A DNA stretch of 64,000 nucleotides from assembly GCA_949130485.1 (NCBI GenBank), contig OX422204.1, forward strand, positions 4,774,015 to 4,838,014, read 5' to 3'. This document shows positions 1 to 56,670 of the stretch, piece after piece. Origin of the DNA: Agelas oroides (lineage: Eukaryota > Porifera > Demospongiae > Agelasida > Agelasidae). Under the pieces are notes generated by a model. That model ran no database searches and was not told the DNA's origin. It saw nothing but the letters and a program-made list of their open reading frames with translations. Every line of letters starts with the position of its first letter. Within the stretch, counting starts at the first letter, position 1. The position numbers were made by a program, and so were the translations under genes.

Positions 1-1484
1 ACCGAGTAAGAAGCCACAAAACGGTACTACATTAGTTGCGCGGATATATCTGCTATCGACCCTAAAGGGTTAAGGAGTTTGCTTGGCCTGCAAATGATTT
101 TATGCATTGCCTACAGCTATACATTTTAAGTGCTGAACCATTTGTTAGTGGTTCACTGGCCCAACTGCCATTGAAAATCACCGCTGTCCTAACGAGTTTA
201 GTTGCAGCTATGCACCTCGCTTGTTCATAGAAGACCGGCAGATGATTGCAGAATGCGCCTAGGCGGATTATGTCGCTGTGATGATTGAAAGGACACACAT
301 AAGTACATGCGTAAACAAATTGCTATTTCAGTCACTCAAAAGTTGTCCTTCTAGTGAGTTACTGCCGACAGAAACTGAACAGCCTGGAGTCAAACCATCT
401 TTCTAAAAATGCATAGAAACATACAGTATATTATATGGTAGTCTATTATAGACATCTTCCTGTCGTATAAGCTTGATGTTCTTCTGACATATTCTCTGCA
501 TACTATTTCACCATCTGTCACCCCACCTGCTGTTTTGCCAACTGCAGTACCTTCTTTCATGGAAATTCGAAGTCAGCTGGCTTACCAAATGCATATATGG
601 ACAGCCAAAAAATTGGATGCAATACTCTGCAAACCATGTACCTACTATGGCTCTGCTTCTGTCCCAAAATGGGCCAGAAGCAACCACAGAGCATTATGCA
701 TGCATATATAGATAGCTGCACGAAGGACAGTTACATGAACAGACGATGCTTTCAAGGAGTTTCCACCAACCTTTTGGATACAGCTAGCCACTTGACTGCA
801 TTCTGTGCATGAGACAGCAGTCCCCATTTCTGGTCACCACAGTGCAGCTGATGAGGCCTGGTATTGGCCGAAACGCATCCTGCACAGTGGATAACATCTA
901 GGCCTATTTTTAAAGGAGATCTGGTTCATTGATTGTTCATAAATACACATAGGACATCCATGTAACCCGGCCCCCTTCTAAAAATCCTAGCTACGGGCAT
1001 GTTTTTTATTTGTTTTTTTTGGCATTACACCCTATCTTGTGTGCATTTGGTATAAAGTGATTGTGACTTAGTTTAGTTATAGTTTTCAGGTTTTATAATT
1101 ATTTCAGTTAGTTCAACAATAGAATAATAACAGGATAGATCTTGGACTTTCACAGTATAGTTGGCAAAAAAATATATATTTTTTGTGCTCTGGTAATCTT
1201 CTTGAGGCTGTGAACTATACTGTGAAAGTCCAAGATCTAGATCTATCCCTGTATATCATAGCACATGGTAACATGATGCTCAAGGAATAGAGATTTATTT
1301 TATTTTTATGTGTACGAATCAATTAGAGTACGTATGTAAATCTTTTCTGGAAAGGGGGTGTACGAATTATTAGAAATGGTACAACATAGAGCATCTGTTG
1401 ACCTGCTATTAAACTGGTTCAAATATTATTCATGAGTTTATCTCCTACTTCATAGTATGTTTGTATGCATACATGTGTATACAG
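1..1484. other. upstream intron or flank, no gene seen
   Basis: No exon matching the missing ACSBG N-terminus could be recognised here. The stretch is AT-rich with one clear hairpin (1133-1248). It is probably intron sequence before exon A. Confidence 0.5.
1133..1248. repeat. short hairpin / foldback repeat
   Basis: GGATAGATCTTGGACTTTCA at the left is matched by its reverse complement at the right, ending CTAGATCTATCC. Arms of about 30-36 bp enclose about 50 bp. This resembles a miniature foldback element. Confidence 0.75.
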
Positions 1485-1605
1485 AGGTCTGCCAGCCGGA
1501 ATCTATGCAACAAATAACTCTGAAGCCTGTCACTTTGTGGCAAACAACTGTAAGGCCAACATCATTGTAGTGGAGAACAAGAGGCAGCTGGACAAAATAC
1601 TTGAC
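1485..1605 (+). CDS. ACSBG: ACSBG exon A
   Basis: The exon follows tatacag and ends before gtaagc. It encodes GLPAGIYATNNSEACHFVAN and the following VVENKRQLDKILD. The leading single base completes a codon from the missing upstream exon. It corresponds to the segment before IWKQLPHLKA in vertebrate ACSBG. Confidence 0.9.
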
Positions 1606-4600
1606 GTAAGCATTGCTATCATAGAGGTGTACTACCAGTGGGTAGAGCTTTGTGTACAAACTGGCATATTAAACACATAGTAGAGTTTAGTGTAGAACCT
1701 GCCTGGCTACCAGTTGCTTACAGTTGCCCCATCATGTATTGACTAAAGACTTGTGTAGCATCTAGGCCTGCCTTCACTACAAAAAAATTAGCCAAGAGTA
1801 GCTACACAGGTTGCAGACAAGCTGAAGAGATGGTGGGTGTTGTTGTGAATAGAGGCTCATTGCATAAGACAACCAGAGAGGAAGTTGATGTAACCATCTT
1901 ACAACCCACTAATACTATACTGAACTTTCCTCAAGGATATCAAGAGCATATAAATTTGCATCATGGAGCAGTTATAGTGACTCCCACATGATGTTCTAAT
2001 GGTTGTTAGAGTGTTCATTGTGGTTATAGGGTGATATGGAAGCTTCGTTTCTGGTTGCTTATAAGTACTTCTCATAACTGCTGTCTTTTCAGCTTGTCTA
2101 CAATTAACTATCCTGTAATTAAAAGAATCAGTCAGTTTTTACAGAATTTGAAATGGAAGGCTGTTGTTACTTTGTTGTTTCTTGATCGTTAAGCTAGTGT
2201 TTGTCAGTTGATGTATTTAACTCCACATCTCCTCTGAAGGTCCGGAATCATCTCCCTCACCTAAAGGCCATTGTGCAATACAAAGGAAAGCTTAGCCAAG
2301 AGTACCCAAATGTCTATGAGGTGAAAAACACACACACATGCAACCTTATAGCAGCTAATTTTAGGTGGTTTTGTCTTGTTGCTGTGTTGCTTGCATATGC
2401 ATTACCAGCTGGGAAATGGACTGATAGGAAGTCTTCTCTTCATATCTCTGGCACAATCTGTGCCATATTCATGTGACTCCCCATCAATGGCTTACATGCT
2501 CCATTTTTTGGCAGTGGGAGGAGTTTCTGAAGCTAGGAGATTGGATACAGACAAGTGTGGTGGAGGAGAAAATTAAGTCTCAAAAGCCAAACCAGTGTGC
2601 CCTGCTTATCTACACTGTGAGTTAATGAGCTGGTACCTGGTTATACTCTCTCTTGCTTCCCTGCATCTTTCCTTTTCTTCCCCTCCTTCCACCTTTCCTA
2701 TTTTCTCACTCTTTCACTCTTTCCCCCTCCTTTTCTCCCACCCTTATTCTCACTACCTCCCTCCCACCACTCCTACTTTTTGCCCCATACATGTTATATA
2801 GTCTGGGACAACTGGCAATCCAAAAGGAGTTATGCTTAGCCATGACAATGTAAGTTTTTAAAAAGAAATTTTTTTCAAAATAAACACAATGAATATCATC
2901 GTGCTTTGGGGTGATTCATATGTACGTATTCCTGGTACTGTTCATTTTAGATCACCTTTACTGCAAGATCTCTTGACAGTACTCATGGACAACTGCAGCA
3001 TGGACAAGACCGTGGAGTTAGCTACCTTCCACTCAGTCACATTGCTGCTCAGGTACCTTGTTTTGATGGATGTTTTGCTCAGGTACGGATTGCATTCCCA
3101 TTAACAGCCATACATTATGAAATGAGGACACCTAGCTATTTTGTAAAGTGGACAGTTTTGTTTGGTCCCTCTAGTAGCTGGACTGTACAAAACTCACTCA
3201 ATAATGCAGACGCTTGCATGCCTCGTATGCAAGGTTGTCCACCACCACTGATACCGATTACATAGGATTGACATTTTCAAAAGCAACAGCTCAGGATTGG
3301 CTTGAGCTATGCATGACCAACATCAAACAATGTCCCAATGGCTGCTCTTTGCAAAACATTGTTGGTCGTCTGAAACTAATTGGTTCTACTACCTGCAGTT
3401 TTTCATTTTCATTCAGTTAAAATGTGTATGGGAAAAATTAAAAACGTGCAACTTCGATATCAGACAACAACCAATGATGATTGTTCGATAGAGCTCACTG
3501 AGAGCTTTCTTCTGATGTATACATATTTGAATTTTGATAATGGCTAGTGCCTGCAGTTTTTTCCAGAAGTTTTGAGTATCCGGAATCACTACCACTGATC
3601 ACTTCAAAAACTGGACATTATAATAGCACTGGTATGCATACTAGCCTCTGGTTGGCCTTTCTCTCTAACATACAGCAAGGGAGAGTTCCTCGGGTCTATT
3701 AAGACATGTCCGTGCAGCACAGTCCGTGCATTAAACCACGCCCAATACTTGGTTAACTGGAAGTACAAAGTTGCCTAGATTCCAAGGTTGCGGGAAAACT
3801 GGCCAATTGTGTTCGCAGTACGACATCCAATTCCCATTCTGGTGCTAATTTGCGGTTTGAGAACGTGTCTGTGAGCTGAAAGCGTTGAAAACAACTTCTC
3901 GTGAGGCAGATGACTTACACTCAGTCCTTAGATGTATCTCTGTTTTAAAACGTGAAGGTAAGCATTGAATCAGCTACTGCCCCGGGGGGAATAATAGCAG
4001 TAGCTTAGTTCAAAAGTTATTCTGTGATTTATGTGCTCAAAAGGTCTATTTAGAGCACAACTAGCCTTAAAATAGTTCTGGCAACCGTTGTATGAACAGT
4101 AGCAAGTTCCCCTTTGGTGATTTTAAAGTAGATTGGTTCCTTTTCTTAGTATATGTGCTGCGCACCGTTTCATGAGTAGGAAGTCATCCACCTTTTGCCA
4201 CCAAAAATTTTTCGTGCATGTTGTTGTTTACACAACACTCATTAGTGTGGGTGTGGTTTTAAGTCATTAAGGATATTAAGCGTGGTGCATTAAACATTCT
4301 CATGAAGTTTCATACACAAAGCAGTATGCCTTAATCATCTGTGAGCAATTTAGTACTTTGTAAGATCTTGGCCAGATCCCAGACTGACGTCCACAACCAC
4401 AGACTATGTAAACAGCTAGTCAGAAGTTCAGTTTTATCATTTTGTTGTACAGATAGTCCTAGCCTGACAAAGGTCCAGATCTGTCCAAAATGTCACAAGT
4501 TGTACTGTTGTTGTGAAATTTATGAATTTTTTTTCAATATATCACTATATTCACTCGATATAGTCACAGTTATGTATATGAAGGCAAAGCAAATAAAGAC

Positions 4601-7600: not shown

Positions 7601-10600
7601 AAAGACCTATTTTCGTATTCAATATTCATTGCTCATCACCAGTCATGTAATCAGAAATCTCATGACATTTTGTGTAGGAAATCAGATTTACAAAACCTGA
7701 TTTCGATAAGCACCTACTGCCTAGTAGTCCTGTTTATGGCTGTAATGATTTCATTACAGGGTTCACTTGTGCAAACATTGCTGGAGGTACAGCCAACCTT
7801 CTTCTTTGGAGTACCAAGGTGTCCATTCACTCCCTTCTTTCCCTTCGGCAATCCTCCTTTCAATATTTCCTTCTCCTTCCTTCTGCCTATCCTCTTCCTC
7901 CAATGTCTCCTTCCTCCTCCTCACTTAAATTCTCTTCTCCCCTTCCTCTCCATCTTCACTCTAGGGTGTATGAGAACATCATGGAGCAACTGCAGGAACG
8001 TGGTACTAGTATCACTGGTTTCAAGAAAGTTATTACCATGTGGGCTAAGAATAAAGGACTCGAAGGAAACATAAACAGACAGTGCAAGTGAGACATTCCC
8101 CACTCTCTCGACAACCCAAATGTTCCCATGCTACTTCATGCTCTGAAGAGTGGTGAAGGAGCATATGACTTCCCATAAAAACCCTTGGTAATGTCAGAGC
8201 AACCATTCCAGGCAGTTCCAGGTAGAAATTGAACAATATTCTGCTGAATATTTTGAATGTGTTACCCTACTTTTAATGAAAGTTCTACCGTTTGTACAGC
8301 ACTTCAAACGCAGTAATGCATTTGATATACTCAGTGGAATAGTATTTAATTTATAGCCAGGACTACCACATATGGCAACCATCCAGTAACTTAAATTCCA
8401 CTACAAAGCCAAGTGTGACAGTGTGTCTTATATTTTGCTGAAACTCTGAATTTACTGACTATTAAGCTGAGTGTAAATCAGGGTATCAACTTTTGGAGTT
8501 CTTTATGGCTAATTGCCAGCACTCAATTTTGATCACACTCTAAATTGATTGCACTTCATTTCTTGCTTCCTTCTATAGCCGTTCGCTGCCAAGAGGGTGG
8601 ACACTTGCAGACAAGCTGCTATTCAAGAAGGTCCATGAGGCCTTAGGCTTTCAACAGTGCAAGATGTTTGTTGTGGGGGCAGCACCAACACGTAGGGAGG
8701 TCCATGACTACTTCATGTCAATCAACATTCCTCTCATGGAGTTGTATGGGATGAGTGAAAGCTCAGGACCCCACACACTGAATCTCATTCAGCAGGATGG
8801 ATGGAGGGTTGGAAGCTGTGGTAAGACCATCAAGGGAGTTCAGCTGAAGATTTCCAAACCAGATGAGAATGGAGAAGGAGAGGTAAGTTGGGTAGGAATC
8901 ATATCAGGTCATGCCTAGTAAGGTGTATACCCATAGCATATGACTGTAAAGGCTGTGTGGTGACATAGCTGATAGACATCTACATGTTTTAATCAGAATT
9001 TAATCAGTGTGCTTGAAGCTCAGAGTTATAACTCTGGATTGAATGCAGGCATTTTAGCGCTCCAAAAGCCTATACAGGCACCAAAAACCAGGCTATACAT
9101 AGTGCTGTTTAGGCCATAGCAGCGCAACTTAACATAAGCTCTTTTGAAACAAAAATCTGTTTACTAAGTACTGTCAAACTCACTGCTTTCAGCAGCTAGT
9201 CTTCTTGCGCAAGTGGTGGCATTTTTCCAGTACTGCTCCAAATCTGGGCATTGCATAAAATTTTGACTAGCGTTCTTTGTAAATCATGACTAACAAAGCC
9301 GTTTTTTATGGTTTGCCTTCAGTTTTTTATTTTGCAAAGCTAAACGTGTCGACCAAGAAAATTTTGTACTGAAGGCTGTGGAATTGTGATTTTCTGCAGC
9401 AAATAAAAGCACTTTACTAAAATATATGCAAAGTTAGTAACGGTAGGAGTGTATTGGATCTGCTAGTATTGAAGATGAATGTCATTATAAAAGCAGTTCT
9501 CTCAACTTGTTCATCGTAACCTTAAGTGTATTGACAATTCAGACAATCCAGACAACAAGCTTTGCTCTCTGCTCCATCCAGATCTGCTTGTATGGCCGCC
9601 ATGTGTTCATGGGATACCTCAATGATGAAGCAAAGACATTAGAAACCATTGACGAAGATGGATGGCTGCACTCAGGAGACATTGGAAAAGTTCAAGTGGG
9701 TATAATTTCTATCTCACAGTAGATGGAAATCTCATATCCAGTTTTCTTACTACAGTATACAAGTACAGGACCAGTGTTTCATACGAATTTTAAGTTGGTA
9801 GGGGCCGGAACAGTGACCCATACTAATACAAATAACTAGGAGGGGTCTAGGGGTGTCCCTCTCTGTAAAAACTACAAAATAATTTACAGGTCATCATAAT
9901 ACAGTATACAAGTACTTTGTACAAGAAAAGAGCAGATGAGAGGCAGAGAAAGTATAAAACAAAAGGATGGAAATTCTGAGAGTAATGCCAACAGTTTAGT
10001 CCACATGAGGTACACGGCCCTCACAGATAACAAGGTCGAGTGGAGTGTCCAAAGGAGGCACGTATCCATGCTTTGAACATGCTCCTCTCACTCACATACT
10101 TGCAGAGCAAAGGAGTGAGAGTGAGAGGCGGGATCGTAGCCATCCCATCACTAGGCAGTATGGCTGCTCCCGCCTGGTGGAGATTAGTGAGGCAAGGCAC
10201 TTATGGTACATGTCTTTAAAAATGACGCTGCGCTTCGGAAACTATTTCCGCTGCTGCGCCGCAAATGCAGCTCCGGAATGCTTAAACGCGGCTCCGGAAG
10301 ACACAAACGCAGCTACGGAAGTCCTAAACGCAGCTCCGGAAGACACAAACGCAGCTCACGAAAGTCTTAAACGCAGCTCACGGAAAACCGTAAACGCAGC
10401 TCCGGAAAACCGAAACGGGATACGTACGTAAATCGGAAAAAAAAAATCGTGAACGTCGGCAGGCTTCCCTACGAACGTTGGAGTCAGCTGAGCGCAAATG
10501 GCGGACGAAAGGTTCCCAACGGTACTCGTTCGATGGGAAGGTAACAATTCGAAGCGATATGACCATATGAAAGAAGAAATCTTCCTGTCCAACATTGTTG

Positions 10601-12959
10601 CTATCAACAAGACGGCAGTCATTGAACCTTCCTTAGATCAGTTAAGTGTTGGAGATCACATCGAGTACGAGTTTGTTGTGAAGAAAGGGAAAGTGCAGCT
10701 GTGGTGTGGAGTAGTTGTTTCCACCGATCCAGACGCGGATCGCCGCGCTGGTTCGGTACCCAACGAGCTGGAAACAACGTCCAAATGAGCGCAATGTCAC
10801 CGTACCACTACCAAAGGAGTGAGTCGTCTGAAAGCTACGGATTCTGATAAGGCCGAATGCCATACTGTTGCATCGTTGTTGTTTGAGAATTTGAGCTCTA
10901 CCAAAGGCAAGCAGCAGAAGCGTCACAGCAGTACGCCACTACCGGGTGCTGGGCCAAAGCGGAAACGTGGTAGGTGGAGCTTCTGTTTGTTCTCTCCGTT
11001 AGCCTTGCTTTACCTCCAAGAAACATGATTTTAGGCTACACAGTTAAATAAAATTTGCTCTCTCTATTTTTAACATTCAAGATGCTGCAGGAAAGATTCT
11101 GTTGGTCAGTGGGAGCAAGATGGATTACGGAGCAAAGTTAGGTACGTAACTGTACATAGATAAGACAAGGCAACACTGACTTAGGGGGGTCTATATAGCC
11201 TTGTATGGCCTGGTAACTTTCAGGAATTAAAACTGTACGACATTTGTGGTGCAATGTCAATAGAGGAATTGCGTTTGATGTCATCACTGCCACACTTTCT
11301 GCATACATGTATTTCCATATGCCATGTTGGAAGGCAGGCAATTGGAGCATAATATAATGGCGAGGCTATTCCACAGGCTTGTTTTGAGGTATGGACGATG
11401 CATTAGTTTCAACTTTAGACCATGCAGAGGGCTAGTATGGACGTTCAACAGACCAGTGCATAAAAGAAAGGTTACTTGTAGAGTGTTGCTAAAGTGGCAA
11501 GTTTGAGGCACTAGTACTGAAATCCCAATGAAAACTGCCTTTGCCTTCCAAGATGGCATGCACTACTTGTATGACGTAATCTAATAAAGTAAAAGCAAAT
11601 CCTCTATTAATCGCACTGTGCTGGGTAGGATGGTAAATTTTGTTGTCCTGTGACTGCTTGCAAGACACACGTCTTTGTTGTGGCCAGCGAGACGGGCACA
11701 TGTGGATGACACCTGTTTTGTCAGTTCAAAAGCTGAATGGCGCTTGCACTCTCACAGTGTCGCATAGCATTGTACCCAGGTAGCCTCATTCCCAGGCTCT
11801 TCCTGCTAATGAGGGGGAGAGCCTGGTACATTTTATCATGTGCGTGACATCAAGAGTAGACACAACGTAATTGCGCATGGGCACACACGAAATCCTGCCC
11901 ACATAGTTCAGAGCTCATGAATGAGGAAAGTACACACGTAGCTACAAAAGTGCTGGCTACAGCAGCCATAAATTGCCAGTGTAGTAGATTCTTAGAGTGT
12001 CAACACGGCACCTGACGGGTTGAATGGCAAGATTTTTTTTGTGTTTTAAGCTAGCGTCGTTATTGTTCGAGTTGTGACTAAAGAAATCGACTAGTTGTAT
12101 GTGAACAACTATATATTGCTGACTGCAAAGACGAAGGTAACACTAAAGCCATATTTACCCCCAAAAAATAAACTGTAGTAGTCTTAAAAACTTTTGTGCT
12201 TGAATGTACGTGCATGGGCGCCCAGCTTAGTCCACTCCCGCATAATTAAGTCGTTGTGTCTAATCTTGACGTCATGCAGTGATAAAGTGTACCCAGGCTT
12301 TCTGCATTACTCCAGTATTTGTTGCACAAATATGCAAGTGCAAAACTGACATAGCAGTTTGTATCCCACCAAACAGATGATTGGCAAAAGCACAACCTAG
12401 TTAGCTGAGCAGGCTGTAGTTTGGAATGCACGTCTGTACTGCCAGCTATGGCATCTTACACTTAGTTGTTTGCTGGTTTTGATGTCTCTGCCCGGATTGC
12501 CCAATTGCACAAGCTAAAACAAAAAAAGCTAATTGTGCCTAATCCAGTGCCTTTGAACTGGTGTTCTTGTACCGTTGATGTACTGGAAGCCTAAACCACA
12601 TAAACATATTCATGTGCTAGTTGCGCGTGGCCAAGACGGTTCAAAGGTGCGTATGCGGTAAGGCTTCCTGTGATTGGCTTGAGCATTTGGAAAGGTCGCG
12701 TTTTGAAAGGTCAATGCAAAACTGCTGTAATCTGATCTTGAGTCAGATATGTTTACATACATGCTAGCATTTAGTAGGAAACCAAGCAGCAGGCCTGGCT
12801 GCACTCTCATGCCTCCAGGAGTCAGTAAATTTTGGTTATTTTATTTTAGGTGTTCTGAAGCGCAGTCAACAGTCCAGTAAGGTTAGACCCAATCAACCAC
12901 AGCGTGGATTGCTTTGAGTAATGTGCACGGGAACGCAGTAATGAAAATGCATTTTATTG

Positions 12960-13000
<41 letters not shown>

Positions 13001-16000
13001 TTGCCCTCTTCAGAGCAAGGAGTTGGAGTGCAACCCTTGATTGCCAGTGAACTGAAGGAGATGAGGCTAACACAGCTTGAACTCAATTGCAAGTTACAAC
13101 AGTCCCTGCAACTACAGGAAATAAAATCGTCACTGCAGTCACTGGAAAGAAGTGTCAAGATTCTGAGTGAAAAGTCTGATAAGAGATCAACAGATGGTGA
13201 TGTGATTGACGTGGACAGCCTTCTGTCATCATTCAGTTCCAATCCACCTAGTGAGTCCTCCTGCACATCAGCTTCCCTACCACCAGCATTTGGTTCTCCA
13301 CCACCGTTTGGTTCACCAGTGTTTGGTTCACCAGTGTTTGGTCCAACTTCACCTAGTTCCAATTTCCAGCCGATGATTCCCTCACTCTCTGGCAAACAGA
13401 TGAGGGCTAGCAGTACTCCACCTACCTATAGGTACTTTCAGCAGGACTGCCGTGGAGGTGCTAGTTGTTGGTCGGGGGATAGGTGCCCTCAGAGTGGTGG
13501 AGTACTGGAGTTGGAAGGCCTAGGGGGAATACCTTCAACCAGGGATGAAACTTTGGCCAGTGATGATGGGGACTACACAGCTGTGAGTTGGAGCGCCACC
13601 ACAGGTAGTCAGCTGTTCAGCCAAGGTGCCACCCCACAACTCGGAGATGGAATGCCAACCCAGGATATGCTTGGTGAGCCGGTGGAGTGTGAACCACCAA
13701 CTCAGGGTGCAAGTCTCATCCCAGCTCGCCTAGTGAACAAGTTTACTCCAATATCACCAACGAAATACAAGTCATCGGATGAAGTGATCACCCTTTACAA
13801 GGATTACAAGAATACGAAGGACATTGGCAAGCTTGCTATCGCTTTGGCCAAATATACTTATTTTGGATCGAGTGTAATGGCCCAGTCTACAGTTACAGGC
13901 AGAGGAGGTACAACTCCACTTGATCCTGTCAAATTACAACATCTAAGAAGCAACATCCGTGCCATCTTTCCACTTATGGATGATGCTGAATTTGACAAGA
14001 TTTGGGACAAGTGCAAGTATTCCATTGCAGGATGCTGCAAGACTTTACGATCTGTGAGTACACACACGTGAGTGGGAGTGCCACCACAGTACTATCTCGC
14101 ACATTAGTGGCTGACTGACATTCAGAGTTAATTTTGATTGCAGAGGTGGTTTGCCACCCTTCAATCTTAGTTGGTTCTGTTTGTAGTTTACTGCTGTTCT
14201 ATATTTAGGTGATTTTGCATGATCTGGGACCACCCACGTTACAACCTCCCACACTAGTGGCTGACTGACAAAGAATTATTAGAGGTGGATTGCCACCCTT
14301 TCTCTCTTGGTTGTTGTTTACTGCTGATCTGCATTAAGACGACTTTGTATTTTGAGTTCATTCTTTCAATCTGCTAAATGTAAATTTTCTTATACCAAAG
14401 CCAATTTTCTGAGAATTTTTTAAGCTTGGAAGGATATGTTGACTTCCTTCTATATAGCATGTAGCTTTGCATGCAATTATCAATGCCCTTAAAATAACCG
14501 TGGCAACCAATAAGATAATTATGACAAACTTCAAGATTAAAAATGCTACAGTGAAGTGAAGTGGCACTATCTAACTCTCCAACAGCAAGGAGGACTCACA
14601 CAATAACAAAAAAAAACAGTCAACACAAAGAGCGGTGGAGGCAGGAAGGCGGCTAATCCTACTCACCCTGGCCTCCACCCCGAGTATCTGCCAGTGACCT
14701 CCTCCCACACTCGGTAGTTCACTTCTTCCTCATCAATAGCTGCTCTAACAGCAGCCCAGTTGATAATCCGGGGAGGAGGTGGGCGGGGTGCAGGAGCTTG
14801 GGGTACATGAGCAGCAGCAGCTTCTCTGCGTGCTGTAAGACAGAATAGAGAGGGAGTCCAATTTGATTTGGTAGCTATGTCAGCAATGCCTCATTCCCAG
14901 GCTCTCCCCCGCGCGCACGTGAGAAACATCATAGGTAGAGAGAACTTAATTAAAAGTGGGCGAATGAATGGACTCGCCCACACTTACGGACAGAATACAG
15001 TCTTGTTCAGTTGCGAAAGCTTTATGACTGACAGAACGGGACTAGGCAGCACTACGCTATATTACCTGGCGGTACGGCAAGCTATGGTGAGCACATACAT
15101 TCGAAAATCACGCTAACTTGCGGCTCGCTTACCTAGGCAAACTGACCGCTGTATACCTCGGAGAATGGCTTTCAAGGCGCTATTAAACGCCAAGGCGGAT
15201 ACCGTCAACGCAGGGCATGACAGAGAGCTTTTTTGGATAGCGTCAGCTGCCGTAAGTGTACAGAAGTTAATAATTGTGCGGTACATGGAGTTTTAGTAGA
15301 AAAAAGCCGGTTTCTCGGGTGATTTTTTAAAAAGCCGCACTCTATAATGTTGCAAATTGTCCATACGCATGGTCCTGGTTGTTTGCAGAAGCTGAATTTG
15401 GCTGGAAAATGGAAGCACGCTTTCGATGCGCTCCATGGCATAGGCGATCAGCTTTCTCTCTTCTATCATCGACATCGTTCACGATCTTCTTCGCACCTAC
15501 TGACTACTGAGCACGCCACATGGTACTTTTATACTGTATTACTTCCGGGGACGTTCCTTGTGTTTACAACCTCTAATGAGGTGGTGTGGTAAGCCCAAAC
15601 CTCACCGGGAGGCGCGCGCGGGGTGGGCAAAAGACTATATAGCTCAAACCATGTTCAAGTAAAACAGAGGGCATTCCACTTCACAACGAGAAATAAATGA
15701 AAACTACTCCTTACCTAACTAAATCATGACACATGAGTGTACCAGGGTCAAAGCATCAGTGTTATATTGAGGGCATTCCACTTCAAACAACACAAAAGAA
15801 CACAAACAAACTAACACAAAAAAAAAACAACTTGATAAACACAACAGTATGCAAATGAGGCACTGTTTCCAGGGGGCACTCCACCTCTAGAAACCAGTAG
15901 CATCCCCATTCAGTTCGACAATACGAGGTAACACCCTCCTGAGATGACCGATGTACCTCCTGCACTTCTGTACGTCCACTGTAGCCCAGAACTCCTGAAT

Positions 16001-19000
16001 TCCTTGGACCAGCTCATCTTTGTTTGCAGGTTTGATGACTCGACGAATGTATTCCTGCAGAATCAAATACAGAGAAGAGCATTATAGTTGACTTATCCAT
16101 TTGCACTTCATATAGTTGTATAGTTGTATATTGCCATGCCTGCAAACACCAGGCAAGCTAGACTAGTTCAGTTAAAGAGAGCAAGGCATGCATGCAATTT
16201 GTAGGATACTGTAGCTATCATGAAAAGACATGTAATGCATATGTAGCTCACTTTAAGTTTCACTGACCTTCAGCTCGTGCCAGAGGTTCTCAATTGGGTT
16301 GGCATCAGGACTCTCTGGGGGGGTGCGCCACCAGTTTACTCCATTCTCAGCAAAAAAGGCTTTTGCCACTCTTGAGGTGTGCTTTGGATCATTGTCCTGC
16401 ATAAAACGGTGACCGTTCTCATACTCTGGGCGTTGAAGGGTAGGCAGGAGAGCTACCTGTAGAATCCTGACGTACATTGCTGCATCCATTATGCAATCAA
16501 AGATGCAGATTTCGGTAGCTCCATGCCATCCGATTCCAGCCCATCATGCACCTTGACGGGATGCTTGGCACGGGGCTTTGGGCGGGGCTGCTCGCCCTTC
16601 TTCCTGCAGCAAAATCTTTTGTGGCACTGTAGCTGTACAGATGATTCATCTGTCCACAAAACATCCTCAAAATTGTCATGAAGGTGAGCACGAGCCCATT
16701 CAAGGCGTTTCTCTTTGTTTGCCTGGCGAATAAGTTGGCAGTACGCAGACCCTCGGTACGTCCAGCCCAGTTTGCGTCGGGCACACAGAATCGTGCTGAG
16801 TGATAGCAGCCTCTGGCCTCGCTGCAGCAAGTAGGAGTGTATTTGAACTGCAGTCGCCTCGTCGTCAGCTTGCATTATGTCTTCAATTGTCTGAAGAAGG
16901 GCACTGGTGCGCAGGGTCGGCCTTCCTGATCCTTGTCGCCTCGCAATGCTGCCAGTCTCGACATAGCATTTGTGGCAACGTCGCACAATCTGCGTTGTAA
17001 CGTAAACCACAGCTCCTTCACGCTTTAGTATTGCTACAACCTCGCGGTTAGTGAAGCCCCTTTCCTTCAAGGAGACAATCCGCTGTTTAGCATATTTAGA
17101 CAGAGCTGCCATGATGTCACAGCTAGCTAAAACTGCATCAAACGAACGTATGTACGCACTAACTAATGCACTCACAGTACGCCCGCAACCATAGCCATAC
17201 TAGTTTTACAGAACCTATGTGCGTACGTACGTACGTACGTACGTACCACTTCTTCCGAAGATGTGGAAGGCTTCTTCAGAAGCTTTCCGCATCTTCGGAA
17301 GGCTTCTTCGGAAGAAGCCTTCTGATTTTCGGAAGAAGCCTTCCGATTTGCTAAAGAAGCCTTCCGATTTGCGGCGAAGCTGCGCTGCAAACGCAAGTCC
17401 GGAAAAACATTCCGAAGGGTGGTGTCATTTTTTAAGACGTGTACCGTATAGGCCACTGTGGAGGCTCTTCCCATCCCTCCAGAGGTGCTGAAAACGAGTG
17501 GAGTGAATAAGCCGTGTTCAATGTCAAGAACACGCTGCTCATAAGCTCTTCGCTTCCCTTATTCATAATGTCTATAACATGAAGACATCTGAAGGTCTCT
17601 GTTGGTGGGTGCATTGGGGTTAAAAACCCGTACATCCAAAAATGCACTCTGTTGTTGCAGACCCCAGAAGTCACATGCCCTGATATCTAAGTGAGCATCA
17701 TCATCTCTGTTGGCAGTGGAGTATGATAGAAACTCTGCGAATAGGGGTTATCGACATATGTCACGTCACACTTCTGACATGAGATTGGCTGTGAGATCCC
17801 GGATCTCATTGTGACGGATGGTTGGAAATCCTCCCATTGGGCAACTCAGGGCATGATCAATAGTGAATGAGCGGCCACAGGCACATGTAGTTGGTAGAAG
17901 GGATGGCTACCAGCCATATCTCAGGCAGAGGGTTGAAAAGCCCCTTTGTGAAGGGAGAACCCATGGTTCTCGATGGGGAATGCTACCAGCTAGAAGAACC
18001 CTTTTCCTTGCCTAATTCTAATGATCATAGATTTGGTGGAAGTTGCAAACAGCAGTGCTCAACTGCTGTTGACTGAGTTGCCTTCTTGTCTCTCCTTACT
18101 TCAGCCCTGTCAATGGAGTAAACCCTTGTGGGTCAACTGGGATTGTGCAGATGTGCCTAGCTTCCCTATCGGTACACTATTACGGATGAGGCTTTCTTGA
18201 AGGAGGTACACATTCAACACCATTTGTGTGAGTCCACTCCTGATGGTCCAGCACATCCCTTTGTTCAAAGAGCAACAAAGCAGATCATTTCTTCATCTAG
18301 TCGATCAAACAATGTAGGATGGGGATGTTGTGGGGAAGCATGAGGATTTGGGAGTGTTTCAGCATCAGCAGGTTGACCTGGCAGATACTTTCAATCAACA
18401 CATCATGAACTGTTGTTTCTGATATTGGTTGTGTAGTGTAAGTAACCAAATACCGACCAAGTTTTGTCCCTGGAGCCATAACTTGAATTCAGAATGGTCT
18501 GAAGCTCCTTTCGCCAAAATGTACTTCAATCTCTCTTGCCAAGAACGCAAGTTGTCTTGTTCTAAAACTTGGTTCCAAACACGAGTAATAATTTCATCTG
18601 CAGCAAAACTTCAATTATCGACTACTAGCACCAATTACCGCCCGACCTTTAATATTCCTATACTCAATTATTGTCGTGAAATACATCTGGCACAGCTTAG
18701 GCAGTAAGAATGTCCAGACATATTGGGCAAGTACTGTCATTCCCTTGATCATCTGCCACACAATCTTCTGCACAATCCTCATGCAACCACCTTCCACAGG
18801 CACATGAAATCCATTCAGTACTAGCACCCCGAAGTAGGTCATCTTCATACCGGACAAAACACGTGCAACAGGTAATAGGGTCAATATCTTCATTGGGCTG
18901 TATCTCCAATTCACTGACTCTGCTCTTCTTTGAGTGAGATGCTGGTATAATTGGTTCCTCCACAGTCTTTCTTTTCACGTGACTCAGCACTGGTTAACAG

Positions 19001-28000: not shown

Positions 28001-31000
28001 TAACTTTGAGTTTGAGTCCTCTGTCCCTCCTTTCTCCATCTCTTTCCTTTCCTTCCTATCAACTACTCTCCCTGTCCACTTCCCTCTCACTTGATTCTTC
28101 TCCAGAGCTAATCATCACATCAGATGGTGAGAACATCCATCCGGTACCCATTGAGAGCAAGATCAAGAGTGAGATACCTTTCCTCAGCAACGTGATGGTT
28201 GTCGGTGACAAAAGAAAGTTCCTAACATGCCTCATGACGCTAAAGGTACATTTGTAAATTCACACACATCCACTTAAATCAAAACTGCTTCAAAGACTGA
28301 GTAGTTACGTATGTTTTGTTGACAGACTTTATCCCTCATTTGTATCAACACACTTGAAATATCTTACATACGGTCAATAGCTAAATTGAATCAATGATCT
28401 ACTCACAATGCATCTTTCAAAGAAAGGTTTTCTAATAACTTCGGAAAACTTTTTTACTGATTCGATAGAGGCTCATTGCTATGTTGTCAATTCAGTCGGA
28501 TAGAGATTGGGATTGTTGAGTGATAGATATTATTTACGTGGCATAAAACTGTTACAAGAACAGGACATTTTGAGACCGAAGTCCTTCATCAGCTGTACAA
28601 GACTGCAAATGACCATACCACTGAAAAAATCGTATATATAGTGATAAACGAGGAATGATGTAATGTCTGGTGACATAATGCATAATGAATAATGACATAT
28701 TGAGATGTATTTTATTTGCGGAGTTGAATGATGGCGAAAAAAGACATTGAGATCCTCCGCCAGGATTCGAACCTGGGTCCTCTGAATTCCGGTCAGGTGC
28801 TCTTACCAACTGAGCCACTGGAGCTCTGGCATTGGAGCAGAGGATAGATGGCATTTATCCATAGACACTGTTCGATTCTCAGTGACTGCTGCTATTACCC
28901 GCCTCGCTGGTGGCAGCAAAAGTACCTCGGTACTAACCATGCAGAGTTTCAGAGTTAGCGTAAAGATCCAGCCTGAGAATTGAACAGTGTCTATGGATAA
29001 ATGCCGTCTATCCTCTGCTCCAATGCCAGAGCCCCAGTGGCTCAGTTGGTAAGAGCATCTGACCGGAATTCAGAGGACCCAGGTTCGAATCCTGGCTGGA
29101 TCTCAATGTCTTTTTTCACAATAATGACATAGTCCAGAAGTCATGTGAATGTGCTCCAAATGGAGCTAATCTGTGATCCTTTGTCCAAGTTCATTGAGTT
29201 CTTGGTCTCTGTTGTGCAGTACTTTTTTGACACTTCTCTTGGACCAGTTCTGTTCACATTCTAGCGATTTAAGGCCATTTCGTCTAATCCCATTTCGTCT
29301 AATCCCATTTCGTCTAGCAAAAAGTGTACATGTCCCATTTCGTCTAACAACTTTAGATCTTTTGCCTTGCCTTTTGACTGTCCCAGAATGTACCTAGGGT
29401 CTAAACGTTAGTGTTGACATTGCCATCAGCTTCCCACAAGCCGAGAAGAAGGGATGTTTATTCCACTACTCACAAGCTATCTGGAGGAAGGTGCAGAGTT
29501 TGGGACTCCAGAAACTGTACCAAGAAGATGACGAGTTCAGGGCATTCATCAACTGTTATTGCCTTGGAGTGGCTTGGGTTGAAGGGTGAAGCTCCAGCAT
29601 TTCACAATAGGGACCAATTCTTGGAGTACTTCCAGGACAACTGGATAGAAGGGAACTACCCACTCTGCATGTGGAACATGTACTCCCTTGATGGCCCCCG
29701 CACCAACAACAACACTGAAGGGTGGCACTCAAAGATTCGTAAGCTGGCTGGTAAAGCACACCCAAACATCTACGAGGCTGTTGAGCTCTTCAAAGCTGAG
29801 CAAACAGCTACAGAAGTGAGCTTAATGCAGCTTGCAGCAGGAGGACTACCAGTCAGGGGGAGAAGGAAGTACAGAAGGCATAAAAAGAGACTATTGACTA
29901 TCAAGGAAAAGTATGAGGCGGGCGACATTTTAGTAAGATTATACATTAACCACTCTGATGTATTCTCACTGACCAAAAAAATAAAGAAAAAATTTTAGAC
30001 GAAATGGGACATTTGCACTTTTTGTTAGACGAAATGGGATTAGACGAAATGGGATGACACCATTCTAGCACCTTAGCATTCTCCCATTGGATAATGGGGA
30101 GGATTTGGTTTGCATGTACTGCCATTATTGGGATAATCAAGTCTGACAGCCCTTTTGTGCCCTTTCATTCTTGCCTCCAAAGTTCTAACAATCTCTCCAA
30201 TGTAAGTGTAACCACACTCACAATCAATTTGGCAGACCACACTTTGACTTTGTCCATCGCTGTCTTATTCTTCACATTCATCACATTCATCAATAGGCTC
30301 CTCGTTCTCTTGGATCTGAACACCAATCTGACAATGTCATGACAAGCTTGTTCCAGTTTCTCACTCAATACTCTTATATGTGGGAGACATAAGGTATTTG
30401 TGGGTCCCTTCATCCAGTTGTGTGGTGGTGGTTGGGTTCTTCATTCTCAGGCAGTTTCAGATCAACTGCGGTGGATAGTTGTTCTTGAGCACAAGCTGGA
30501 GGTGTTTGAATCCACTCTTCACCTTCACTTCACTGCATACTGACCAGGCTCGGTAAGCCAGACCAGCCACAACTCTGTGAGGTGGCAGATGGTTGATGGA
30601 GTCAGCTAGGTTCTTCCCTCTAGTGAGTCATCTTGTATGAGTAGTTCTTTGATCACAGCCGTCCATGGCTTCTGGCTGATCCAAAGGAGGAAACAATCAG
30701 TCGGAGTGGGACATTGTTTTTTGTGTACTTTCAGTAGTCCATATAACTGTGGGGGATAGCTGTGTTTTGGAGAGATCCTCTTCCGAAGCTTGTCATCTAT
30801 CTCACCTTCCCTGGTCAGGGTCAGCAGCTTCTCATTAATTGATGTCTCCAGCTTCAAGGTGGGATCCTTATTCACAGGACTGTAAGTCTCATCTTCCAGG
30901 ACATCAAGAATCTTCTGTTGATAGGCGGACTTGTCCATGACAACCATCGAGTTCCCCTTGTCCACAGGTAGGATGACAATGGAGTCATCCTTCCCGAGGC

Positions 31001-40503: not shown

Positions 40504-40797
40504 GGTAAGTACTTGATTGTAAAAGTGTACAGTGGTTTTTTGTACTTGTTCTTAGTATTGTAGCTTTGCTTGTCTCTTTTGTTTGGCTTTCTTGTTCTAA
40601 ATGTCTGTTGATTAATCTCTGTTTACCCTGTCTGAGTGATTGATTTATGTCTCATCATACACTTTGTTTACAAGAATGGTTTGTTCAACTAAATCAGAGA
40701 GTGCTCAAAGAAAGGAATTAGTATTATGGACACTGCACACCCAAGGGGGGGTGGCTAGCCACCCAATCCACCCCCCCGGATCAGCCCCTGCTACTGT

Positions 40798-41228
40798 CTC
40801 TACAGTCTCCACTGTCACCACTGTCTACTGTCACTACTGTCTCCACTGTCACTACTGTCACTACTGTCACTACTGTCACTACTGTCACTACTGTCACTAC
40901 TGTCACTACTGTCACAACTGTCACTACTGTCACTACTGTCTCTACAGTTTCCACTGTCACCACTGTCTACTGTCACTACTGTCTCCACTGTCACTACTGT
41001 CACTACTGTCTCCACTGTCACTACTGTCTCCACTGTCTCAACTGTCACTACTGTCACTACTGTCACTACTGTCACTACTGTCACTGCTGTCTCCACTGTC
41101 ACCACTGTCACTGCTGTCACTACTGTCTCCACTGTCACTACTGTCTCCACTGTAATTACTGTCACTACTGTCTCCACTGTCACTACTGTCTCCACTGTAA
41201 TTACTGTCACTACTGTCACTACTGAGCA
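40798..41228. repeat. 9-bp minisatellite, block 1
   Basis: Tandem TCACTACTG and TCTCCACTG units run for 430 bp, about 48 copies, in pyrimidine-richer orientation on the plus strand. It is open in several frames, but I regard that as non-coding. Confidence 0.95.
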
Positions 41229-41364: not shown

Positions 41365-43880
41365 CCAAAAAAAGTGACAGTAGAGACAGTGGAGACAGTA
41401 GTGACAGTGACAGTAGTGACAGAAGTTACATTGGAGACAGCAGTGATGAGTGACAGTGGAGACAGCAGAGACGGTAGTGACAGTGGAGACAGTAGTGACA
41501 GTGGAGAGTATAACGACAGTAGTGACACTGGAGACAGTAGTGACAGTAGTGACAGTAGTGACAGTGGAGACAGTACTGACAGTAGTGACAGTAGTGACAG
41601 AAGTGACATTGGACACAGCAGTGATGAGTGACAGTGGAGACAGCGGAGACAGTAGTGACAGTGGAGACAGTAGTGACAGTGGAGACAATAGTGACAGTAG
41701 TGACAGTAGTGACAGTAGTGACAGCAGAGACAGTAGTGACAAGTGACAGTGGAGACTGCGGAGACAGTAGTGACAGTAGTGACAAGTGACAGTTGTGATA
41801 GTGGAAACAGTATAGTGACAGCGGTGACAGTAGTGACAGTGGAGACAATATTGACGGTAGTGACAGTAGTGACAGAAGTGACAGTAGTGACAGTGGAGAC
41901 AGCAGTGACAGTAGTGACAGTAGTGACAGTAATGACAGTGGATACAGTATATAGTGACGAGTGACAGTGGAGACAGTAGTGATAGTAGTGACAGTAGTGA
42001 CAGCAGTGACAGTGGAGACAGTAGTGACAGTAGTGACAGTGGAGACAGTAAAGACAGTGGTGACAGTAGTGACAGTAGTGACAGTAGTGACAGTAGTGAC
42101 AGTGGAGACAGTAGGGACAGTGGTGACAGTAGTGACAGTAGTGACAGTGGAGACAGTAGTGACAGTAGTAACAGCAGAGACAGTAGTGACGAGTGACGGA
42201 GACTGCGGAGACAGTAGTGACGAGTGACAGTGGAGACTGCGGAGACAGTAGTGACAGTAGTGACAAGTGACAGTTGTGATAGTGGAAACAGTATAGTGAC
42301 AGTGGAGACAATATTGACGGTAGTGACAGTAGTGACAGAAGTGACAGTAGTGACAGTAGTGACAGCAGAGACAGTAGTGACAGCAGAGACAGTAGTGACG
42401 AGTGACAGTGGAGACTGTGGAGACAGTTGTGACAGTAGTGACAAGTGACAGTTGTGATAGTGGAAACAGTATAGTGACAGTAGTGACAGTGGAGACAGTA
42501 GGGACAGTGGTGACAGTAGGACAGTAGTGACAGTGGAGACAGTATAGTGACAGTAGTGACAGTAGTGACAGCAGAGACAGCAGAGACAGTGACGAGTGAC
42601 AGTGGAGACTGCGGAGACAGTAGTGACAGTGGAGACAATATTGACGGTAGTGACAGTAGTGACAGAAGTGACAGTAGTGACAGTAGTGACAGCAGAGACA
42701 GTAGTGACAGCAGAGACAGTAGTGACGAGTGACAGTGGAGACTGTGGAGACAGTTGTGACAGTAGTGACAAGTGACAGTTGTGATAGTGGAAACAGTATA
42801 GTGACAGTAGTGACAGTGGAGACAGTAGGGACAGTGGTGACAGTAGGACAGTAGTGACAGTGGAGACAGTATAGTGACAGTAGTGACAGTAGTGACAGCA
42901 GAGACAGTAGTGACGAGTGACAGTGGAGACTGCGGAGACAGTAGTGACATTAGTGACAAGTGACAGTTGTGATAGTGGAAACAGTGTAGTGACAGTAGTG
43001 ACAGTAGTGACAGTGGAGACAATATTGACGGTAGTGACAGTAGTGACAGTAGTGACAGTAGTGACAGTGGAGACAGTAGTGACAGTAGTGACAGTGGATA
43101 CAGTAATGACGAGTGACAGTGGAGACAGTAGTGAGAGTGGAGACAGTAGTGACAGTAGTGACAGTGGAGACAATAGTGACAGTAGTGACAGCAGAGACAG
43201 TAGTGACAGTAGTGACAGCAGAGACAGTAGTGACGAGTGACAGTGGAGACTGCGGAGACAGTAGTGACAGTAGTGACAAGTGACAGTTGCGATAGTGGAA
43301 ACAGTATAGTGACAGCGGTGACAGTAGTGACAGTGGAGACAATATGACGGTAGTGACAGTAGTGACAGAAGTGACAGTAGTGACAGTGGAGACAGTAGTG
43401 ACAGTAGTGACAGCAGAGATAGTAGTGACGAGTGATAGTGGAGACTGTGGAGACAGTTGTGACAGTAGTGACAAGTGACAGTTGTGAAAGTGGAAACAGT
43501 ATAGTGACAGTAGTGACAGTAGTGACAGTGGAGACAGTAGGGACAGTGGTGACAGTAGGACAGTAGTGACAGTGGAGACAGTATAGTGACAGTAGTGACA
43601 GTAGTGACAGCAGAGACAGCAGAGACAGTGACGAGTGACAGTGGAGACTGCGGAGACAGTAGTGACATTAGTGACAAGTGACAGTTGTGATGGTGGAAAC
43701 AGTATAGTGACAGTAGTGACAGTGGAGACAATATTGACAGTGGAGACAGTAGTGACAGTAGTGACAGTAGTGACAGTGGAGACAGTAGTGACAGTGGAGA
43801 CAATATTGACAGTAGTGACAGTAGTGACAGTGGAGACAGTAGTGACAGTGGTGACAGTAGTCACAGTAGTGATAGTAGTG
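41365..43880. repeat. 9-bp minisatellite, block 2, inverted, with higher-order units
   Basis: About 2.5 kb of GTGACAGTA and GTGGAGACA units are in inverse orientation to block 1. Landmark variants GTGACAAGTGACAGTTGTGA and GGAGACTGCGGAGACAG recur at irregular intervals of roughly 180-480 bp (near 41783, 42262, 42768, 42956, 43277, 43463, 43674), giving higher-order units of mixed length. Confidence 0.95.
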
Positions 43881-43978
43881 TTGGTATTTAGAGTAGTATA
43901 AAGTTATAATACAACTTAGCACTATGAATAATTATAATTCGTGCTTGCAATACGATGTACCTGCCGGAAAAACTGCTT

Positions 43979-44720
43979 CCGGAGTCGCTGTGAGGGGTGA
44001 CGGTGGTGTAGCTGGTGAAGGGAGAGTTGTTGGTATACCAAAGTTTCATTCGCGGGGTAAGTGCACCATGACATTAACGAATATCAATTCAGATTGGATG
44101 TCCAACGCTTCCTCTGGCCTGTGAATTGTTTATTAATTTATTAACGAGCAAAGTAACCGCACCCTCACGGGAGGTTAGTGCTGCAGGTTTACCTTGGCTC
44201 GAACACTTTAGAGTTCAGTGCTATACGTAGGTTAAATCTTTGTTAGCAGGCTTTAGGGAAGAAAGTTCACAGCTACTTAGCCACAAGACCTGAAGTTGAA
44301 GGTTTTAGAGATCAGGGTTTTGTGCTGCAAATTTACCTGGAGTAGAAAGCCTTAGAGTTCAGAGTTTTGTGGCTTCTTAAAAAAGCATTACCCTCAAGGG
44401 AGAAGCCAGACATCAGTTTATCAATCGTGAATAGCGAGGCACGCCTTCGCCTGCATGCTTCATACTCGCGCGTTAAGCGCATAATATTGGCCCAAAGCAC
44501 GCGGTAGCGCGCTCAATACACGCAATGATTTTATACGTAGTATATTGAACGTGTGACGTCACGTAAGCGCTTCGGGAGTCGCTGTGAGGGGTGACGGCGG
44601 TGTAGCTGGCGAAGGGAGAGTTGTTGGTATACCAAAGTTTCATTCGCGGGGTAAGTGCACCATCCATTAACGAATATCAACTCAGATTGAATGTCCAACG
44701 CTTCCTCTGGCCTGTGTATT
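43979..44720. repeat. family D copy 2, about 594-bp tandem unit
   Basis: A 145-bp segment (GGAGTCGCTGTGAGGGGTGA through TGGATGTCCAACGCTTCCTC) occurs at 43979 and again at 44573 in direct orientation, nearly identical. It is the inverse of the repeat at 23700-24560 and begins about 100 bp after the minisatellite. Confidence 0.8.
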
Positions 44721-56288: not shown

Positions 56289-56670
56289 ACTCAGAGCATC
56301 TTGCCTTACGCTTGAAATAAATAAATTTAGATGTTATGAGGTGAAAATAGAGGAAAGTGAAAAGGCTGGCAGTCACCGGGAGTCAACCCAGGACACCTCT
56401 GGCTTGAGCTGCCAGTGCTCTGCCACTGAGCCACAACAGCCGGACAAACACCAGTGGCTACCAGGTGTGCGACTGAGGCATTCTGTACCACCTGTGCAGT
56501 ACATACAGGGGATTGTGAGGGCTGGTGGTTGTCCGGCTGTTGTGGATCAGTGGCAGAGCACTGGCAGAGCACTGGCAGCTCAAGCCAGAGGTGTCTTGGG
56601 TTTGACTCCCGGTGACTGCCGGCTTTTTCACTTTCCTCTATTTTCACCTCATAACATCTAAATTCATTTA
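56289..56670. mobile_element. second inverted dimer of tRNA-like sequences, 13-bp TSD
   Basis: Arms about 56332-56450 and 56525-56664 are inverted copies around about 75 bp. Each has an outward tRNA-like unit (GTGG.TCAGTGGCAGAGCA; GGTTTGACTCCCGG) followed by a shared tail CTTTCCTCTATTTTCACCTC. TTATGATACTGTT flanks the unit (56276-56288, 56671-56683). The sequence is unrelated to the dimer at 28700, but the architecture is the same. Confidence 0.8.

Follow-up and report, generated by a model that had tools for sequence, protein, structure and literature searches.

The usual example of a transposon that needs only one protein is the Tc1/mariner element. In PIF/Harbinger elements the protein encoded by open reading frame (ORF) 1 is Myb-like. 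PIF/Harbinger movement needs two element-encoded proteins (PMC2836001), and the target there is 3 bp long (PMC2213677). The ciliate TBE and Tec elements belong to Tc1/mariner and have three ORFs; a zinc finger protein is encoded by TBE, one of the Tec ORFs lies in the complement, and purifying selection is reported on the TBE ORFs (PMC7325037). In bacterial Tn3, a BEN-like fold (DBD1) of TnpA reads the transposon ends (PMC9579193). We describe here a 7.24 kb element at positions 10204-17446 of a 64,000-nucleotide stretch of the Agelas oroides genome (the window), which carries a Tc1-type transposase gene together with a gene predicted to encode a divergent BEN-domain protein. The initial annotation took the BEN gene for the cargo of one large element, and set this against canonical Tc1/mariner elements with one gene. 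The carriage stands, but it is no one-off: BEN recurs, under selection, as a second gene across a diverse lineage of Tc1 elements in this genome, including some of only 2.5-4.3 kb. Because multi-gene Tc1/mariner elements (TBE, Tec) are already known (PMC7325037), it is only the BEN gene that is unusual; no report of BEN in this superfamily was found in the literature searched, which is part of the literature with Repbase outside it, and this is not proof of absence.

The assembly comprises 141 contigs and 259 Mb, within which the window, with eukaryotic gene content and introns, is C22:4774015-4838014; coordinates without a prefix are window positions, and those with a C prefix are positions on assembly contigs. 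The element terminates in TGGTACATGTCTTTAAAAATGAC (10204-10226, plus strand) and CGGTACACGTCTTAAAAAATGAC (17424-17446, minus strand), each with the target dinucleotide TA just outside, at 10202-10203 on the left, where a TA precedes this end in every subfamily copy seen, and at 17447-17448 on the right. The left, BEN-side terminal inverted repeat (10204-10250, plus strand) pairs with the right, transposase-side repeat (17400-17446, minus strand) over about 46 nt at 80% identity, or over 74 nt at 70% in another alignment. A 23-nt consensus of both ends matches the window only at the two ends and has no match in 100 shuffles, which is partly circular as the consensus was built from them, but an independent 25-nt pattern gives 42 matches in the whole genome against none for the backward-read control, and the proposed TA-flanked inverted termini are thus borne out. 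That they delimit one unit is shown by a related empty site: once the two flanks are joined at a single TA, all 255 letters align with C22:4060291-4060551 at 86% identity, with no gap at the junction, and with the target TA aligned to TT, which is one mismatch in an 86% paralogue. Further junction-spanning matches to the joined flanks are present at about 70% (e.g. C23:2864815 and C3:7687998). Because the joined flanks match a related empty site gap-free, the 7.24 kb with both genes arrived as one unit, as the suggestion of an unusually large Tc1-type element with BEN had implied, and 10204-17446 is a single TA-flanked insertion carrying both genes.

Both ends are rich in CGGAA, again as originally described. 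The BEN-side subterminal array (10263-10407, plus strand) consists of 6.8 copies of a 21-nt unit, AAACGCAGCTCCGGAAGACAT, and the same array is present in all three copies given to Tandem Repeats Finder (TRF). The transposase-side CGGAAG/CTTCCG repeats (17252-17374, minus strand) include 3.1 copies of a 21-nt unit at 17309-17374 and a 24-nt inverted repeat at 17252-17301. Counted on both strands, CGGAA occurs eight times in 227 nt at one end and nine times in 197 nt at the other (35 and 46 per kb), compared with three times in the 6819 nt inside the element (0.4 per kb) and 52 times in the remaining 56757 nt of the window (0.9 per kb). The ETS core motif is CCGGAAGT, and host ETS sites as a source of the arrays are unsupported, since its count at both ends is zero (a count only).

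The two genes are convergent, with BEN on the plus strand and the transposase on the minus strand, both starting near the ends and finishing towards the middle; the exon structures of both are splice-site models made from the sequence. The transposase model has an exon 1 at 16268-17112, which includes the helix-turn-helix (HTH) region and the DD34E catalytic core, and an exon 2 at 15887-16054 (EYIRRVIKP...NGDATGF followed by a stop), a piece that a search places at C22:4789904-4790089. There is a frame shift near 16540 in the window transposase, and its relatives L043 and L045 run through to the intron. The second transposase ORF piece matches DDE_3 (E 2.7e-10), in agreement with the DD34E transposase claimed for this end opposite a BEN gene in reverse orientation. 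DDE_3 is found in six of six family members, HTH_32 also in six of six (best E 1.3e-8) and HTH_Tnp_Tc3_2 in five of six (best E 5.1e-7), the HTH matches on the window's own transposase being weak and below the cut-off; the second D and the E are 34 residues apart in all seven members examined. Sleeping Beauty SB100X is the sole solved relative of the transposase alignment (E 2.4e-39). The DDE spacing, HTH, TA target and inverted repeats together place the element, as judged from its sequence, in the DD34E Tc1 group of Tc1/mariner.

The second gene has a predicted three-exon structure with frame-keeping GT/AG joins, consistent with the multi-exon BEN gene of the initial annotation. Exon 1 is modelled at 10498-10969, exon 2 at 11082-11141 and exon 3 at 12999-14071, where it reaches the stop, all on the plus strand; exon 3 is supported by an ORF, a Pfam match and the splice model, and encodes a glutamine-rich heptad-like stretch, a proline-rich linker and then the BEN domain at about 13770-14062. 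Exon 1 has an in-frame TGA at 10786-10788, where the codon is CGA in the copies at C2:13203322, C1:10272135 and C2:15089208 and CAA in that at C1:10511781; exon 1 is open throughout in the C1:10272135 copy (158 residues), and the C2:13203322 copy has another stop just before. With the TGA and the transposase frame shift, neither of them in the initial annotation, the window copy looks decayed. Pfam BEN matches the 394-residue ORF with E 0.0013 and 19.3 bits, under the 23.2-bit cut-off, and the isolated domain with E 9.1e-5 and 23.0 bits; in a genome search with Pfam BEN the window domain passes the cut-off at 23.3 bits with its neighbours, and some other copies pass it also. Within the family set, Pfam BEN matches nine of 13 members (best E 1.5e-5) and any other family matches at most one member, and a 13-sequence BEN profile searched against solved structures returns four BEND3 chain sequences at E 0.003-0.005, with the next match at 0.91. 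We conclude that the second gene probably encodes a divergent BEN-domain protein.

Five complete pairs of ends emerge from the 42 end matches, the window copy (7247 bp including the TAs), C1:10262001-10272159, C2:12774373-12781374, C2:13203322-13212392 and C2:15082961-15089208, each with TA on both sides and with flanking sequence that differs between copies. All five bracket both the DD34E transposase and the convergent BEN gene, and in the subfamily copies we saw no closer inverted repeats with TA around the transposase by itself, its terminus being the shared outer one; on both counts the composite unit proposed earlier holds. In four of the five the exon 3 frame is open over 394-421 codons, and in the C1 copy it is broken. 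Both genes are also retained in a sixth copy (C1:10505496-10511805), whose right end is degraded, and two right ends with transposase, at C1:27382932 and C2:5460891, have no left end paired. At L003 (C2:12779618-12782870), BEN exon 1 is split by unrelated sequence whose translation, by eye, resembles the HTH part of another transposase. Fourteen of the 42 end matches are near-identical ends of a small related element spread on one strand over 2.5 Mb (C3:13944997-16481291, L011-L014 and L016-L020); their flanks are nearly the same in the nine loci compared, which indicates duplication of a larger unit and not transposition.

The association extends well beyond the window subfamily. Transposases 46-52% identical to that of the window belong to elements that have TA|CAGTA ends and also contain a convergent BEN gene, among them L081 (C3:2164561-2168897), a complete 4337 bp element whose ends are 97% alike over 61 nt, with BEN and a two-exon transposase on opposite strands. 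Other completed elements are L082+L085 (C7, 4345 bp), L058+L086 (C17, 4116 bp), L060+L087 (C3, 3097 bp) and L083 (C5, 2482 bp), the last with a BEN remnant of only about 80 residues, and all six elements compared have terminal inverted repeats of 80-97% identity over 45-66 nt. A tally of terminus pairs was made from 100 of 155 CAGTA-type end matches, the five subfamily pairs and the C17 pair, with only transposase and BEN search matches placed between the ends. Among these listed matches, BEN is present in 13 of 16 pairs that hold a transposase, including eight complete CAGTA-type pairs beyond the subfamily that have both genes (the BEN at C5:6240702 being a truncated remnant), and the 13 pairs with both genes span 2.5-10.2 kb, which departs from the usual, though not defining, format of a single gene in 1-2.5 kb. 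The pairs lacking BEN are a 1251-bp deletion element (C5:476216-477466, read whole) and those at C2:13806365 and C2:14090058 (3.5 kb of each read), which look like one duplicated locus. Also among the listed matches are 13 short end pairs of 139-1021 bp, 11 of them at 582-629 bp, which contain neither gene and look like non-autonomous derivatives; the 582-629-bp pairs resemble miniature inverted-repeat transposable elements and mostly have the end TACAGTAGCGGTCAAAATAAAGTT (C1:2986667, C1:25712193, C2:13805336, C2:23953571, C8:7769933, C8:10173306 and others). Just outside the transposase-side end of L082 (its positions 1-3000, C7:6572500-6575470) there is a long minisatellite whose open frame repeats proline-rich words.

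Genome-wide, three BEN searches merged into 52 loci and the transposase searches into 85, with about 14 rows that adjoin a listed row at the same locus omitted from the transposase list. A transposase lies within 10 kb of 35 of the 52 BEN loci compared with 0.35 expected, a count that is biased towards transposon BEN, as two of the three queries are transposon BEN proteins, and that is given with no p-value as the copies are not independent. The orientation of these 35 is convergent in 29, divergent in three and same-strand in three. With the Pfam BEN query alone, 11 of 15 matches lie within 10 kb of a transposase, five of the 11 being window-subfamily copies. That two unrelated elements, or an element and a host BEN gene, became neighbours by chance or by nesting draws support only from the large size of the window copy; the gap-free empty site already refutes it there, and with 13 listed terminus pairs holding both genes and the strong bias to convergence we consider it hardly credible and reject it. 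In the other direction, a BEN locus lies within 10 kb of 40 of the 85 transposase loci, and many of the remaining 45 are fragments. Some long-frame transposases have no BEN nearby (e.g. a 340-residue family at C1:4204291 and C3:15496339), and BEN therefore characterizes a lineage and not all Tc1 elements here. At two loci, C20:4500121-4503950 and C19:4881073-4884317, a more distant Tc1-like transposase (34-36% identical) is followed 2.6-3.1 kb downstream by a BEN match in the same orientation, that at C20 being the best Pfam BEN match in the genome; these may represent host genes or an independent second association. Searches with the transposase alignment in viral_contigs and genome_contigs, and with the BEN protein in viral_contigs and the phages collection, yielded no relative, and as these hold few eukaryotes they are silent on spread among animals.

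The BEN gene has been maintained by selection. Between the window and three other copies, exon 3 has 20.5-24.5 synonymous and 12.5-16.5 non-synonymous changes, giving ratios of the non-synonymous to the synonymous proportion (pN/pS) of 0.18, 0.18 and 0.21 (Fisher p 8.9e-8, 1.6e-6 and 3.9e-7), and the exon evolved under purifying selection; BEN is therefore not a passenger. We consider it highly improbable that BEN is a degenerate remnant of a single capture, replicated together with the transposase: the truncation or absence of BEN in three of 16 listed terminus pairs and the remnant in L083 would fit such a history, but a pN/pS of about 0.2 with p about 1e-7 disfavors it, exon 3 is open in four of the five complete copies, and the gene is present in subfamilies whose BEN domains are only about 26-38% identical to that of the window. 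BEN and transposase distances are correlated across 11 elements (r 0.757, permutation p 0.0005) and across eight inner elements (r 0.871, p 0.015), and the main groups of the two trees agree although their fine order does not resolve.

The interpretation we favor is that the window element is an apparently decayed copy of an old Tc1 lineage that has held a BEN gene, convergent with its transposase, since before its subfamilies diverged, and that the BEN protein serves the element, probably by way of the CGGAA-rich subterminal ends; we give this explanation as a whole a probability of about 0.45. The transposase would act as in other members of its Tc1 family, by cut-and-paste at the TA-flanked ends, and the BEN protein would be a second element-encoded DNA-binding protein, one that recognizes the subterminal repeats rich in CGGAA and assists in end loading, end pairing or control of element expression. 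Such a two-protein logic may resemble that of PIF/Harbinger, in which ORF1 is required for movement in addition to the transposase. Carriage of BEN and selection on it are direct observations, and its element-serving function we infer; because BEN is selected, CGGAA is dense at the ends, and Tn3 and PIF provide precedents, a transposase partner that binds the ends appears to be the most likely role. The density of CGGAA is not peculiar to the window element (nine per 300 nt at each end), and is raised at both ends in L081 (2/4 per 300 nt), L083 (6/3) and L060 (4/6) and at the transposase end in L082 (1/6), whereas the interiors of the four elements computed have 0.0-1.1 per kb; BEN-side tandem arrays of 19-22 nt are present in the window subfamily, L081, L060 and L083.

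Several observations weigh against this interpretation at different points. The BEN assignment is founded on weak scores, with single proteins at or under the Pfam cut-off; a nine-sequence BEN profile gave BEND3 at E 0.12-0.33 only, and when the BEN alignment was compared by hhalign with the C20 BEN of the same genome the probability was 41%. Selection is weaker among the three closest copies themselves (pN/pS 0.36-0.39, p 0.04-0.06), and transposase exon 1 has ratios of 0.32-0.95 (p 0.045-0.67), with one of six comparisons below p 0.05. Over the six closest subfamilies the BEN and transposase distances are uncorrelated (r 0.229, p 0.28). Neither L082 nor L058 has a BEN-side tandem array, and in L058 CGGAA is not raised (1/1 per 300 nt), CGTAA-type 6-mers being there instead, so that binding of arrays by BEN does not hold generally in the form stated. 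The CGTAA words could be either evidence against a common binding site or a switch of specificity, and the CGGAA motif could equally serve the transposase or a host factor. A bolder version of our proposal, which we regard as doubtful, is a two-protein Tc1/mariner system in which the transposase depends on BEN as an obligate partner bound to the subterminal repeats at both ends, the two genes having diversified together over many subfamilies, with changes in the end motif (such as CGGAA to CGTAA in L058) tracking changes in BEN.

The position of the best array, at 10263-10407 and directly upstream of the BEN exon 1 start at 10498, invites a different view, in which BEN is an element-encoded transcriptional repressor that binds a promoter-proximal array, damps expression of BEN and the transposase and limits copy number, with selection acting on self-regulation and not on cut-and-paste. 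Published BEN proteins are mostly repressors (PMC5704228, PMC12367297) and complete copies are few, with five in the subfamily, but the transposase end is equally dense in CGGAA and a low copy number may reflect only age or host silencing; we hold this to be unlikely, though a serious contender. Somewhat further from our expectations, and unlikely on balance though also a serious contender, is action on the host, with BEN as a chromatin factor that counters silencing or steers insertion, as is thought for viral BEN proteins. Purifying selection and the presence of BEN genes in bracoviruses and chordopoxviruses (PMC5704228) are consistent with this, although the sequence contains no pointer to a host target and the motif enrichment sits in the element itself.

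With respect to described systems, the element resembles Sleeping Beauty-type Tc1/DD34E transposons in its DD34E core, HTH, TA target and inverted repeats of about 45-66 nt, and departs from them in its second, convergent, multi-exon BEN gene, a size of 2.5-10.2 kb and an intron within the transposase gene. In the related subfamilies most ends begin with CAGT as in Tc1, in contrast to those of the window subfamily, which are mostly YGGT. Like TBE and Tec, the lineage combines a Tc1/mariner DD34E transposase with additional coding capacity, but the second gene is BEN and not a zinc finger or recombinase, and there is no hint of a role in programmed DNA elimination; two genes were recognized in the element, with a TBE/Tec-type zinc finger, recombinase or third ORF sought only in the ORF list. 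The comparison with PIF/Harbinger is one of how the systems may work, in that both have two element-encoded proteins with the second binding DNA (for BEN, presumptively), and they differ in transposase superfamily and in target, TA here and 3 bp there. BEND3, insensitive and viral BEN proteins share with the element protein a BEN domain at the C-terminal end, and its top solved-structure matches are all BEND3, but it differs from known BEN factors in being transposon-encoded and in its weak sequence similarity. The BEN-like DBD1 of Tn3 TnpA acts on transposon ends from within the transposase, whereas here it would be a separate protein, the two being compared by description only.

These findings suggest that transposons that usually have one gene have acquired their own helper or regulator. 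What the Tc1 transposase lacks in some hosts, whether end pairing, regulation or escape from silencing, can naturally be tested in a lineage like this, in which selection preserves a second DNA-binding gene. With 35 of the 52 BEN loci found here beside such a transposase, transposons may inflate the counts of BEN host genes in similar genomes, and the opposite route, host recruitment of transposon BEN genes, becomes testable; if the two-protein system is real, transposons would also be a source of metazoan BEN genes.

Elsewhere in the window are two 9-nt satellites, one at 40791-41224 with 49 copies of CTACTGTCA and the other at 41373-43880 with 283 copies of AGTGACAGT and a strong GC skew (0.48 over 42001-44000). 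Two transfer RNAs are predicted, tRNA-Ser(gga) at 29031-29104 and tRNA-Glu(ctc) at 56367-56441.

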